From Actinospineispora acaciae DSM 45401 (lineage in GTDB: Bacteria > Actinomycetota > Actinomycetes > Mycobacteriales > Pseudonocardiaceae), in contig NZ_JIAI01000005.1 of the NCBI RefSeq assembly GCF_000620785.1, positions 1 through 64,000 of the forward strand: a stretch of DNA of 64,000 nucleotides, read 5' to 3'. This document shows, piece after piece, positions 37,166 to 63,270 of the stretch; position 1 is the first letter of the stretch; every line of letters starts with the position of its first letter. The translations under genes and the position numbers were made by a program. A model generated the notes under the pieces. It had not been told where the DNA came from. It searched no databases and saw nothing but the letters and a program-made list of their open reading frames with translations.

Positions 37166-38287
37166 ATGCACGAGTACCAGCACGAGCAGGTTCGGATCGA
37201 GCGCGGTGCGCGCTCCGGCGTGACGATCATCGTGGCCATCCACTCCACGGCGCTCGGGCCGGCGATCGGCGGCTGCCGGCTGTGGCGCTACCCGGGCTGG
37301 CGCGACGCACTGACCGACGCGCTGCGCCTGTCGGCGGGCATGACCGTGAAGAACGCGACCGCGGGGCTGGACCTGGGCGGCGGCAAGGCGGTGATCGCGC
37401 TCCCGGAGGGCGCCACACTGGACGGTCGGGAGCGCCGGGACGTGCTGCACGACGTCGGCGAGCTGGTCGAGTCGTTCGGCGGCCGCTACGCCACCGGGCC
37501 CGATGTGGGCACCGGCCCCGACGACATGGCGGTCATCGGCGAGCGCACCGGCCACCTGTTCTGCCGGCCGGAGTCGCTGGGCGGCAGCGGCGACTCGTCG
37601 TCACACACCGCCGACGGGGTGCTCGCGGCGCTGGCGGCGACGACGGTCCACCTCGACGGCGGTGACCCGGCGCGGCACGCCGACCTGGACGGGCGGCGGA
37701 TCACCGTGGTCGGGCTCGGGCACGTGGGCGAGCGACTGGCCAGGACGCTCGCGGCTGCCGGCGCCCGGCTCGCCGTGACCGACATCGACCCGGCACGGCG
37801 CGCGCTCGCGGCGGAGCTCGGCGCGCGGTGGCTGGAGCCGGGGCGGGCCTGGACGGAGGAGACCGACGTGCTGGTGCCGGCCGCGCTCGGCGGGGCGCTG
37901 ACCCACGCGCTGGTGCCGGAGCTGCGCTGCCGGGCGATCGTCGGCCCGGCGAACAACCAGCTCGCGGACGAGGAGGTCGCCGACCGGCTGCACCGGCGCG
38001 GCGTCCACTGGGTGCCGGACTACCTGGCCGGCGCGGGCGGCGTGATCTACGCGGTGGCGCGCGAGCTGCGCGGAACCGGGCACGAGGAGGCGGCCGCCCG
38101 GGTACGCGGCATCGGAGACACCACCGCCGCGCTCCTGCACGCGGCGGCGCGCGACGGCATCAGCCCGCACCTGTCCGCTCTCCGCCGCGTCCGTGACCGC
38201 CTCGCCGCCGCGCGCCGGGCGGCGGCCCCCGGTACGACGCCGCCCCGGACTCAGACGACCTCGGCATCGACCCTGGTCAAGCCGTAG
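37166..38287 (+). CDS. Leucine/valine (Glu/Leu/Phe/Val) dehydrogenase
   Basis: 373 residues with CAGGAG before the ATG. It removes the amino group of branched-chain amino acids with NAD and yields the keto acid, often as first step toward branched fatty acid starters. The substrate domain has GPAIGGCRLWRYPGW, MTVKNATAGLDLGGGKAVI (catalytic lysines near 62 and 74) and GPDVGTGPDDM. The NAD fold starts with ITVVGLGHVGERLA. Length fits leucine/valine dehydrogenases rather than glutamate dehydrogenase. The last 37 bases overlap the opposing Panacea gene. Confidence 0.9.
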   Translation: MHEYQHEQVRIERGARSGVTIIVAIHSTALGPAIGGCRLWRYPGWRDALTDALRLSAGMTVKNATAGLDLGGGKAVIALPEGATLDGRERRDVLHDVGELVESFGGRYATGPDVGTGPDDMAVIGERTGHLFCRPESLGGSGDSSSHTADGVLAALAATTVHLDGGDPARHADLDGRRITVVGLGHVGERLARTLAAAGARLAVTDIDPARRALAAELGARWLEPGRAWTEETDVLVPAALGGALTHALVPELRCRAIVGPANNQLADEEVADRLHRRGVHWVPDYLAGAGGVIYAVARELRGTGHEEAAARVRGIGDTTAALLHAAARDGISPHLSALRRVRDRLAAARRAAAPGTTPPRTQTTSASTLVKP

Positions 38288-38727
38288 TAGGTGAACATGG
38301 CGTCGGTCGTGATGACCGCATCGCCCCGCTCGCGCTCGCTCAGCCCGGCGCGCTCCCGCGCCTGTCGCCATGGGTCCTCCCGGTGTGTCAGCTCGCTGAG
38401 CCGGTGCGCGGACTCGTCGCCGTAGGCACCCAGCACGGCGTCGATCGTGGACGTCTCGGCATCGGTGAGGCCCGCCGGCGGTCCGCCGACATCGGCCGGA
38501 CCGGCGAGTGTGAACCGACCCCGGTGCATGCGGTAAAGCGCGCGCACGACCGGCCCGTTCGCCCACGCCTCGATCCGGTCGGCGAACAGCGCCCGCTGCT
38601 CCCACACCAGGTGCCAGGCCTGGCTGTAGTAGACGAGCTTCTGGAGCTTCATCGCCGTCATCGGACCCTGTCGCCCCAGGATGTACGCCGCTACGTCCCG
38701 TGCGCTGGTCACCGCGACCTCGGTCAT
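38251..38727 (-). CDS. Panacea (SocA-like, DUF4065) domain protein
   Basis: 158 residues from the ATG at 38727. The domain is recognised from DVAAYILGRQGPMTAMKLQKLVYYSQAWHLVW, here given in parts, plus EAWANGPVVRALYRMHRG. Panacea domains act as antitoxin or chaperone modules in toxin-antitoxin pairs (SocA with SocB; PanA with PanT). No toxin gene adjoins: the left neighbour is the convergent dehydrogenase and the right one a DHFR-like gene on the same strand. A TATACT hexamer six bases before the ATG suggests a leaderless message, and it overlaps a near-perfect SOS box. Confidence 0.8.
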   Translation of the reverse strand: MTEVAVTSARDVAAYILGRQGPMTAMKLQKLVYYSQAWHLVWEQRALFADRIEAWANGPVVRALYRMHRGRFTLAGPADVGGPPAGLTDAETSTIDAVLGAYGDESAHRLSELTHREDPWRQARERAGLSERERGDAVITTDAMFTYYGLTRVDAEVV

Positions 38728-38733
38728 GCACCC

Positions 38734-38753
38734 AGTATAGAACATATGTTCGA
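38734..38753 (-). promoter_or_regulatory. LexA-type SOS box overlapping the -10 element of the Panacea gene
   Basis: On the plus strand TAGAAC-ATAT-GTTCGA (38738-38753) matches the actinobacterial SOS consensus TCGAAC-N4-GTTCGA at all but one of the twelve defined positions. On the minus strand TATACT (38739-38734) forms a -10 element just before the start codon, and shares two bases with the box. A repressor bound here would block the promoter. Confidence 0.7.
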
Positions 38754-38806
38754 TAGATGCCTCCAACTTCCTGCCGTGAACCCCGCGCCGATCCGACGTC
38801 GGACCC

Positions 38807-39370
38807 TCAGTGCCTGGTCTCGTACCTGGTCAGGACCACGCCCTCGGGAAACGTCCGGGTCTCCACCAGGGTCAGGTTCACCCAGTTGTCCAGGGCCGTG
38901 AAGAACGGCGTGCCGCTGCCCACCAAGACCGGCGCGGTGGCCAGCACGTACTCGTCGATCAGCCCGGCCCGCATCGCCGCCGAGGCGAGCGTGGCGCCGC
39001 CGATGTCCATAGGGCCGCCATCCTCGGCCTTGAGCCGGGTGATCTCGGTGACCGCGTCACCGGTGGCCAGGCGGGTGTTCCAGTCGACCGTACTGATCGT
39101 GGAGGAGAACACCACTTTCGGCATCTTCTGCCAGCGGCGGGCGAACTCGATCTCCGCCGGTGTTGCGCCGGGCTGCCGGTCGGCGGTCGGCCAGTAGGAA
39201 CTCATCGTCTCCCACAGTTTGCGCCCATACAGCGCCAGGTCGGTCGCCCCCACCCGGTCCGACCACCACTGGAACAGCTCGTCGCTCGGCGCGCTCCAGC
39301 CGATGTCGTCCCCGGGCGCGGCGATGTAGCCGTCCAGGCTCAGGTTCATGCCAAAGGTCAGTTTCCGCAT
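38807..39370 (-). CDS. Dihydrofolate reductase/RibD C-terminal-like protein
   Basis: 187 residues from the ATG at 39370 with GGGAG upstream. The fold is shown by KLTFGMNLSLDGYIAAPGDD, ALYGRKLWETMSSYWPTAD and MDIGGATLASAAMRAGLIDEYVLATAPVLVG, here in parts. These small reductases use NADPH; most actinobacterial members of this group are not real folate enzymes and their substrate is unknown. It stands upstream of the Panacea gene on the same strand, with an independent promoter. Confidence 0.85.
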   Translation of the reverse strand: MRKLTFGMNLSLDGYIAAPGDDIGWSAPSDELFQWWSDRVGATDLALYGRKLWETMSSYWPTADRQPGATPAEIEFARRWQKMPKVVFSSTISTVDWNTRLATGDAVTEITRLKAEDGGPMDIGGATLASAAMRAGLIDEYVLATAPVLVGSGTPFFTALDNWVNLTLVETRTFPEGVVLTRYETRH

Positions 39371-39626
39371 GGCGTCAGCTCCCGTGAGTCGGTACGTGAC
39401 GTATAGACGGGCACGGCGCGGACAAATCATCGGTCAGGCCACACCGAGGGCCGGTTGACCAACCACGCCAGCGATTGCGCTTCCGGCGAGCCGTAGTCGG
39501 CGCTGTGCTCCCCGTCCGCCGGCTCGTGATCGACCCGCGCGAAGTCGCGCCCACCAACCCGATGAGTTTCCCCGCGAACTCGGGTCGTCATCGTGACGGC
39601 AGGCGACACCTACCGGAGGATGTGAC

Positions 39627-62909: not shown

Positions 62910-62927
62910 ACGAGCCTCCCAGTCGGG

Positions 62928-63000
62928 TGGAGACGAGGGGAATCGAACCCCTAACCCCTGCCTTGCAAAGGCAGTGCTCTGCCAATTGAGCTACGTCCCC
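62928..63000 (-). tRNA. tRNA-Ala (anticodon UGC)
   Basis: 73 bases fold as a complete cloverleaf. The anticodon loop TTTGCAA gives TGC, and the acceptor stem GGGGACG/CGTCTCC shows the G3-U70 pair that marks alanine tRNAs. The discriminator is A; a full CCA is not encoded. Confidence 0.97.
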
Positions 63001-63049
63001 GGTTTGCGGACGGGTCAGCTGGCCCGTCCGCCGCACGGGTTGTCGCGCG

Positions 63050-63163
63050 TCAGTTGTTCGTGGTCGCGTGCTGCCAGGGGTCCTCGTCGGAGCGCGACCG
63101 GACCTTGCTGAACACGAACGCCGCGACACCGAGAATCGCGGCGAAGACCAGAAACTTCTTCAT
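63050..63163 (-). CDS. DLW-39 family small membrane protein
   Basis: 37 residues. A single membrane segment (KKFLVFAAILGVAAFVFSKV) is followed by the family hallmark DEDPWQHATTNN. Such peptides are found between the tRNA-Ile and tRNA-Ala genes near gyrA in many actinobacteria. AGAGGA lies upstream of the ATG. The function is unknown. The gene is short enough to be missed by usual gene finders. Confidence 0.85.
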   Translation of the reverse strand: MKKFLVFAAILGVAAFVFSKVRSRSDEDPWQHATTNN

Positions 63164-63196
63164 GTGATCACTGTTCCTCTGCGAGTTGCGCGGGAG

Positions 63197-63270
63197 TGGG
63201 CCCAGGTGGACTTGAACCACCGACCTCGTCGTTATCAGCGACGCGCTCTAACCGACTGAGCTATGGGCCC
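63197..63270 (-). tRNA. tRNA-Ile (anticodon GAU)
   Basis: 74 bases form a complete cloverleaf with acceptor stem GGGCCCA/TGGGCCC, anticodon GAT in the loop CTGATAA and T-loop TTCAAGT; the discriminator is A. The next gene upstream on this strand is the DUF3566 protein. Confidence 0.97.

Follow-up and report, generated by a model that had tools for sequence, protein, structure and literature searches.

The gene that we call panA, on the minus strand of the window (the whole 64-kb stretch of DNA analysed here), is probably, at roughly three chances in four, the antitoxin half of a Panacea toxin-antitoxin (TA) operon whose toxin has been lost but whose LexA-repressed promoter remains. The evidence was obtained by computation and comprises the box upstream of the gene, its geometry, its recurrence before other Panacea genes and the absence of the partner gene.

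Box and promoter of panA

The features of the locus are as follows.

38738..38753, minus strand: LexA (SOS) box TCGAACATATGTTCTA, with 1 mismatch to the palindromic actinobacterial consensus TCGAACATATGTTCGA
38734..38739, minus strand: -10-like hexamer TATACT, overlapping the gene-side end of the box by 2 bases, 6 nt 5' of the ATG
38251..38727, minus strand: panA, intact gene of 158 codons plus stop for a SocA-like (Panacea) antitoxin
38807-39430, minus strand, pointing toward the box: gene for a RibD_C protein, upstream neighbour of panA
38251..38287, no strand: 3'-end overlap of panA and a convergent Glu/Leu/Phe/Val-type dehydrogenase ORF, 37 bp, stops included

The box and the hexamer together make up the interval 38734-38753, for which the initial annotation had claimed a near-perfect LexA box lying over the -10 element of a leaderless Panacea gene. 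The observation is borne out: the box has a single mismatch, and TCGAACATATGTTCTA is the sole match in a window-wide motif scan at up to 3 mismatches, a threshold at which shuffled windows gave a mean of 0.03 expected matches (3/100 shuffles with a match). The consensus used here agrees with that of S. venezuelae LexA (tCGAAC-N4-GNNCGa, in the available portion of PMC9380542), and a consensus box in the promoter, the feature that marks membership of the LexA (SOS) regulon, is present at panA. The ATG of panA lies at 38727 (minus strand; the start codon was picked by homology) and the end of the overlapping TATACT is 6 nt away, and this spacing makes a leaderless transcript plausible; however, a simple sigma-70 scan of 38000-39600 returned no paired -35/-10 promoter. 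The box serves no divergent gene, since the upstream neighbour lies on the same strand as panA, and the layout of the sequence supports a box placed so that it could block the panA promoter.

Boxes of this kind are also found elsewhere in the source genome. Across the 9.93 Mb of that genome, with palindromes counted on both strands, there are 34 strand-matches to CGAACNNNNGTTCKA, compared with 3 to the reversed control. One such box precedes recA (TIGR02012), with 129 bp between its centre and the start of the gene, and another lies where imuA' (NF058630) begins. A DprA-like gene (L030; G000:C11, about 157055), whose score is under its equivalog cut-off, also has a LexA-type box before it, centred 37 bp from the gene start.

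The Panacea gene and its missing partner

That panA encodes a Panacea-domain protein, as first annotated, is confirmed by its match to PF13274 (E 4.3e-18; 66.7 bits against a gathering cut-off of 25.7). The product keeps 54 of the 55 columns conserved in 105 homologues (1 change; the homologue median is 2 changes), and panA is the one Panacea gene in the source genome at E up to 0.001. The orphan gene has no sister copy to serve as a measure of selection. Against the SocA equivalog of type VI (NF047745) the product scores 46.8 bits, under the cut-off of 190; because of this low score, and because the partner in this clade is predicted to be RelE-like, the SocB/DnaN analogy drawn in the initial annotation looks weak.

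Homologues of panA were gathered from GTDB contigs (80 of 301 kept), viral contigs (55) and relatives (6/120 genomes, the window's own included). Clustering of the ORFs at these loci revealed one conserved neighbour family, which is present in 99 loci and almost always located on the same strand right after panA. An HMM built from 88 proteins of this family had matches in 120/140 homologue loci, and every one of the 120 follows panA directly on the same strand. A lone Panacea gene is therefore not the native arrangement that it had been taken for, and the window panA appears from these comparisons to be an intact, orphaned antitoxin of a Panacea TA operon.

The HMM finds no match in the 64-kb window at E up to 1e-3 and no toxin gene adjoins panA, in agreement with what had been reported. 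Adjacency in PanAT operons is defined by a toxin gene within 100 nt (PMC8832971), and no adjacent toxin gene is found at the window panA. The suggestion that the partner must be elsewhere or absent likewise holds after a partner profile search of the source genome, in which it was not found among 150 of the 162-168 candidate places that were scored; of the other genomes searched alongside it, 7/8 matched the profile at E 1.6e-4 or better, the eighth (G147, with a Fic-type partner) giving a match of only 0.585. A scan of 396 genomes of the phylum with the partner-alignment profile yielded nothing, 9 candidates per genome being scored among the matches listed, and is given no weight. Since the assembly consists of 93 contigs (completeness 98.11%, contamination 7.34%) and 150 of the 162-168 places were scored, a toxin could still reside elsewhere in the genome.

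The overlap at 38251..38287 occupies the place where homologues have the partner gene, and is likely to mark the junction of toxin loss, of an insertion or of both. At the syntenic dehydrogenase locus of a genome from the same genus (L263 of G012), DNA similarity stops at window position 38075, and this genome has no match to the window panA; panA therefore seems to have been inserted, or left by a rearrangement, with its partner missing. Among the homologues, the partner ORF of L109 has 66 aa compared with 152 aa in L105 of the same species, a possible case of toxin decay with the box kept.

The partner family itself is likely to be a RelE-type toxin, as judged mainly from a structural model. 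In an alignment of 67 partners, an R, a D and an H close to the C-terminus are invariant. The AlphaFold2 model of one of them (L037; mean pLDDT 86, pTM 0.70) has its best VIA match with the T. thermophilus RelE structure 2khe (Z 8.5 over 86 residues at 2.4 A, where a Z of 7-8 is common without kinship), the remaining VIA matches having Z of 7.0 or less, and nearly all of the best 50 matches listed are RelE, HigB, YoeB, YafQ or ParE. Foldseek gave a weak E of 0.12 at best. In sequence searches, protein P0001 had no match among PDB chains, one of four partner proteins matched Pfam (PF17840, below cut-off), NCBIfam MAG6450 matched at 0.0012 and 0.00016 (below cut-off), the PADLOC match to NsnC was weak, and phrog_8366, to which PHROGs assigns no function, matched at 5e-7. 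Toxin activity would be expected of the family.

LexA-type boxes at other Panacea loci

In the identity-based set of homologues (29 actinobacterial and 51 other loci, with taxa as labelled in the records), we searched from 220 bp upstream to 40 bp past the homology start. Boxes with up to 1 mismatch occur at 8/29 actinobacterial and 0/51 other loci (Fisher p 1.5e-4; L105 and L109 come from a single species, and loci that are related do not count as independent). Upstream of homologues GAACn4GTTC was seen 18 times, a count to which the window and three duplicate species (L174=L037, L175=L038, L177=L060) contribute, against an expectation of 0.88 derived from the flanks; a control palindrome was seen once against 0.42 expected. 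Conservation of the box is nonetheless incomplete: it recurs above chance at homologues and other Panacea genes, and above its frequency at PhdYefM antitoxins (below), but the only close homologue from the same genus (L032, 63%) has no box at up to 2 mismatches.

Other patterns were not enriched upstream of homologues, or not informative. The alpha-type GTTCn7GTTC was found 2 times (1.12 expected), and the gamma-type CTGTn8ACAG once (0.42 expected; its control 3 vs 0.56). A cyanobacterial-type pattern was found 6 times (0.88 expected), with 0/6 of the loci labelled cyanobacterial and 2/6 of the sites overlapping the LexA box; one of these loci, L156, is a viral contig with unassigned host. Two phage-like viral contigs (L144 and L145) carry near-boxes with 1 mismatch, 171 bp ahead of the point where homology to panA begins, and mobile elements may therefore use the host LexA too. 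In a Chloroflexi homologue (L072), the sequence about 92 bp upstream is AGAACGGTTGTTCT, whose inner palindrome is perfect but whose flanks are altered.

A sample drawn by family provides a test independent of similarity to the window panA. Searching 394 genomes of the class with PF13274 gave 39 places in 31 genomes (the window's included), hence 38 besides the window, and the region searched for boxes was the 400 bp upstream of the domain; at least six of these loci (L174, L196, L198, L200, L203 and L210) also belong to the identity-based set. The exact CGAACn4GTTCG is present at 9/38 loci (0.14 expected) and GAACn4GTTC at 11/38 (0.71 expected), the latter in 8 genera. With up to 1 mismatch the box is found at 12/36 loci, with 2.42 expected for 37 loci including the window; this count omits L195 and L174, both of which are among the 38 loci of the other counts. 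Control palindromes with a spacing of 3 or 5, and the inverted palindrome, are found at 0/38 loci. The box is accordingly absent from 29/38 loci (exact) or 24/36 (up to 1 mismatch).

As matched control we used PhdYefM antitoxins (PF02604) from the same 30 genomes, where the exact box occurs at 1/70 and the box with up to 1 mismatch at 3/70 loci (70 of the listed places were used, three of them with under 400 bp upstream). The difference between Panacea (9/38) and PhdYefM (1/70) in exact boxes is significant (Fisher p 0.0003). An earlier PhdYefM control had a box at 0/30 loci (30 of 102 places), and was redone in the 30 Panacea-bearing genomes because it came from other genomes of the class. 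The PhdYefM locus with an exact box, L326, has CCGAACCGCCGTTCGG, and LexA control is therefore not limited to Panacea among TA loci. The best reading of these sequence comparisons is that LexA control recurs among the Panacea promoters of actinomycetes.

The geometry seen at panA also recurs. A TANNNT hexamer starts between -4 and +3 of the box end at 13/26 box-bearing loci (12/25 without the window; four of the loci with the hexamer, L214, L226, L228 and L230, are one Panacea subfamily and not fully independent), compared with 4.3% of positions in the same 400-bp upstream regions. This test covered 26 of the 28 distinct box-bearing loci, omitting the viral contigs L144 and L145. The box hence tends to occupy a position from which bound LexA would obstruct RNA polymerase. 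The distance from box to homology or domain start ranges from 25 to 342 bp across box-bearing loci.

At least four partner families are found at box-bearing Panacea loci. The first is RelE-like (for instance L037, L038, L040, L058, L060, L105 and L205), and the second is Fic/Doc (L202 by Pfam, L179 and L186 by eye). The third consists of proteins of ~80-99 aa with DPYQGVRRE..GF.NLW (L033, L034, L204, L209, L212, L213, L217 and L227), grouped by eye and with some members split or with unsure starts, and the fourth of proteins of ~115 aa (L214, L226 and L230, with a similar one split in frames in L228). One member each of the 80-99 aa and 115-aa families was compared with Pfam, PHROGs and PADLOC and gave no match at the thresholds applied. 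As the box is present with different partner families, LexA control seems to follow the Panacea gene and not one toxin. In the subfamily with the DPYQGVRRE partner, the box was observed 142 bp before the domain start in L204, L209, L213 and L227 and 141 bp before it in L217; such fixed-distance groups are Panacea subfamilies, and their loci are hence not independent.

Readings of the locus and known systems

If the toxin was lost and the promoter kept, LexA bound there would mask the -10 region and hold panA silent. DNA damage would then, through RecA-stimulated cleavage of LexA, release the promoter, and panA would be expressed from a leaderless transcript. Where relatives have the box, panA and the partner gene would come under this switch together, as one operon; in the window the antitoxin alone would be inducible. 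We infer from the box that LexA binds there and that damage induces panA. The likeliest remaining role of PanA, if any, would be the neutralisation of a toxin, RelE-fold or otherwise sensitive to Panacea, that a mobile element brings in or sets free. The orphan may be protective; toxin neutralisation is the most sensible positive role, and a relic is about as likely.

Such a pure relic would have lost its toxin recently, with box and antitoxin not yet decayed and with no present role. The patchy distribution of panA (6/120 genomes, the window's own included) speaks for it, as does the partner gone from the place where homologues have it, and G012, which has no match to the window panA, shows no similarity past the dehydrogenase at L263. 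On the other hand, 54/55 conserved positions are kept, where the homologue median is 2 changes, and we hold this explanation only tentatively.

The same conservation, with the intact ORF, the tight setting of box and -10 and the partner not found in the genome (150 of 162-168 places scored), could also be understood if a lone Panacea protein acted on host proteins after damage, for instance as a SocA-like protease adaptor; SocA is an adaptor of ClpXP in Caulobacter, according to the accessible text of PMC8832971. The same text reports that the PanAs tested neutralise without need of ClpXP or Lon, and the score of panA is far under the SocA equivalog cut-off. Because homologues so regularly have partners (120/140 with an adjoining one), we do not favour such a solo effector and regard it as unlikely.

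TA operons are commonly autoregulated through palindromes, and the box might accordingly be an operator of PanA or of another regulator instead of LexA. This is quite improbable given that recA and imuA' of the source genome have boxes of this type, that the distance to panA varies (25 to 342 bp), that the box occurs with different partners and Panacea subfamilies, and that 0/51 non-actinobacterial homologues have a box at up to 1 mismatch. A chance match of a short motif in a 9.9-Mb genome is the least probable of all, with 0.03 expected per window even at 3 mismatches and 18 GAACn4GTTC boxes upstream of homologues (the window and three duplicate species included) where 0.88 are expected.

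Panacea TA systems and the swapping of their partners are already known (PMC8832971, in the part available). The PanAT loci described there and in PMC10440598 (as far as both texts were available) resemble the box-bearing Panacea loci in their Panacea antitoxin domain, swapping of toxin families, Fic/Doc partners and mobile distribution, but have a toxin, which the window panA lacks. The words 'SOS' and 'LexA' have 0 occurrences in the main text of either paper. SocAB of Caulobacter (type VI) shares with the window panA the Panacea domain and has a reported link to replication stress; however, panA scores under the SocA equivalog cut-off and its clade partner is predicted from the model to be RelE-like.

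LexA-controlled TA loci are known as well, for example higBA of Caulobacter (Kirkpatrick 2016, as cited in the available part of PMC6120978) and symE of E. coli (PMC1891008, from the passage available). Both resemble the panA-partner loci in LexA repression of a TA locus, which is predicted here, and HigB/RelE resembles the modelled fold of the Panacea partner. The window panA differs from them in its Panacea antitoxin, its actinobacterial box and the presence of an antitoxin without toxin. The initial annotation had regarded damage-induced Panacea expression as a new link. This novelty has to be qualified: in chelator-treated Caulobacter cells socB was up 17.2-fold and socA 14.0-fold, according to a study of how iron deficiency activates the SOS response (PMC6120978, available part), and DNA damage can make SocB accumulate according to a review (PMC5812544, in the excerpt available). 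Among the papers listed by a literature search that extended to neither subscription papers nor preprints, none was seen to describe Panacea genes, those of actinomycetes included, as controlled by LexA. What appears new here is the predicted LexA control of actinomycete Panacea operons.

A wider proposal, which we consider doubtful at present, is that Panacea operons form a standing SOS branch in actinomycetes, in which the LexA-panA promoter lasts, toxins are swapped, and an orphan PanA would act as a damage-timed antitoxin shield. If so, the shield would be timed to the damage-triggered activation of prophages and plasmids, and the toxins swapped behind the promoter would be RelE-like, Fic/Doc and two uncharacterised small families. 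What triggers TA systems is a long-running question, and the regulation of the Panacea family is hardly described in the literature searched. A recurrent host-type LexA box before one promiscuous antitoxin domain, followed by various toxins, would offer a testable trigger for a large family, and with the orphan panA one can study the action of a damage-induced antitoxin that is unable to poison the cell.

Elsewhere in the window, tRNA-Ala(TGC) and tRNA-Ile(GAT) are found close together at 62926-63270 on the minus strand, as in the spacer of an rRNA operon.
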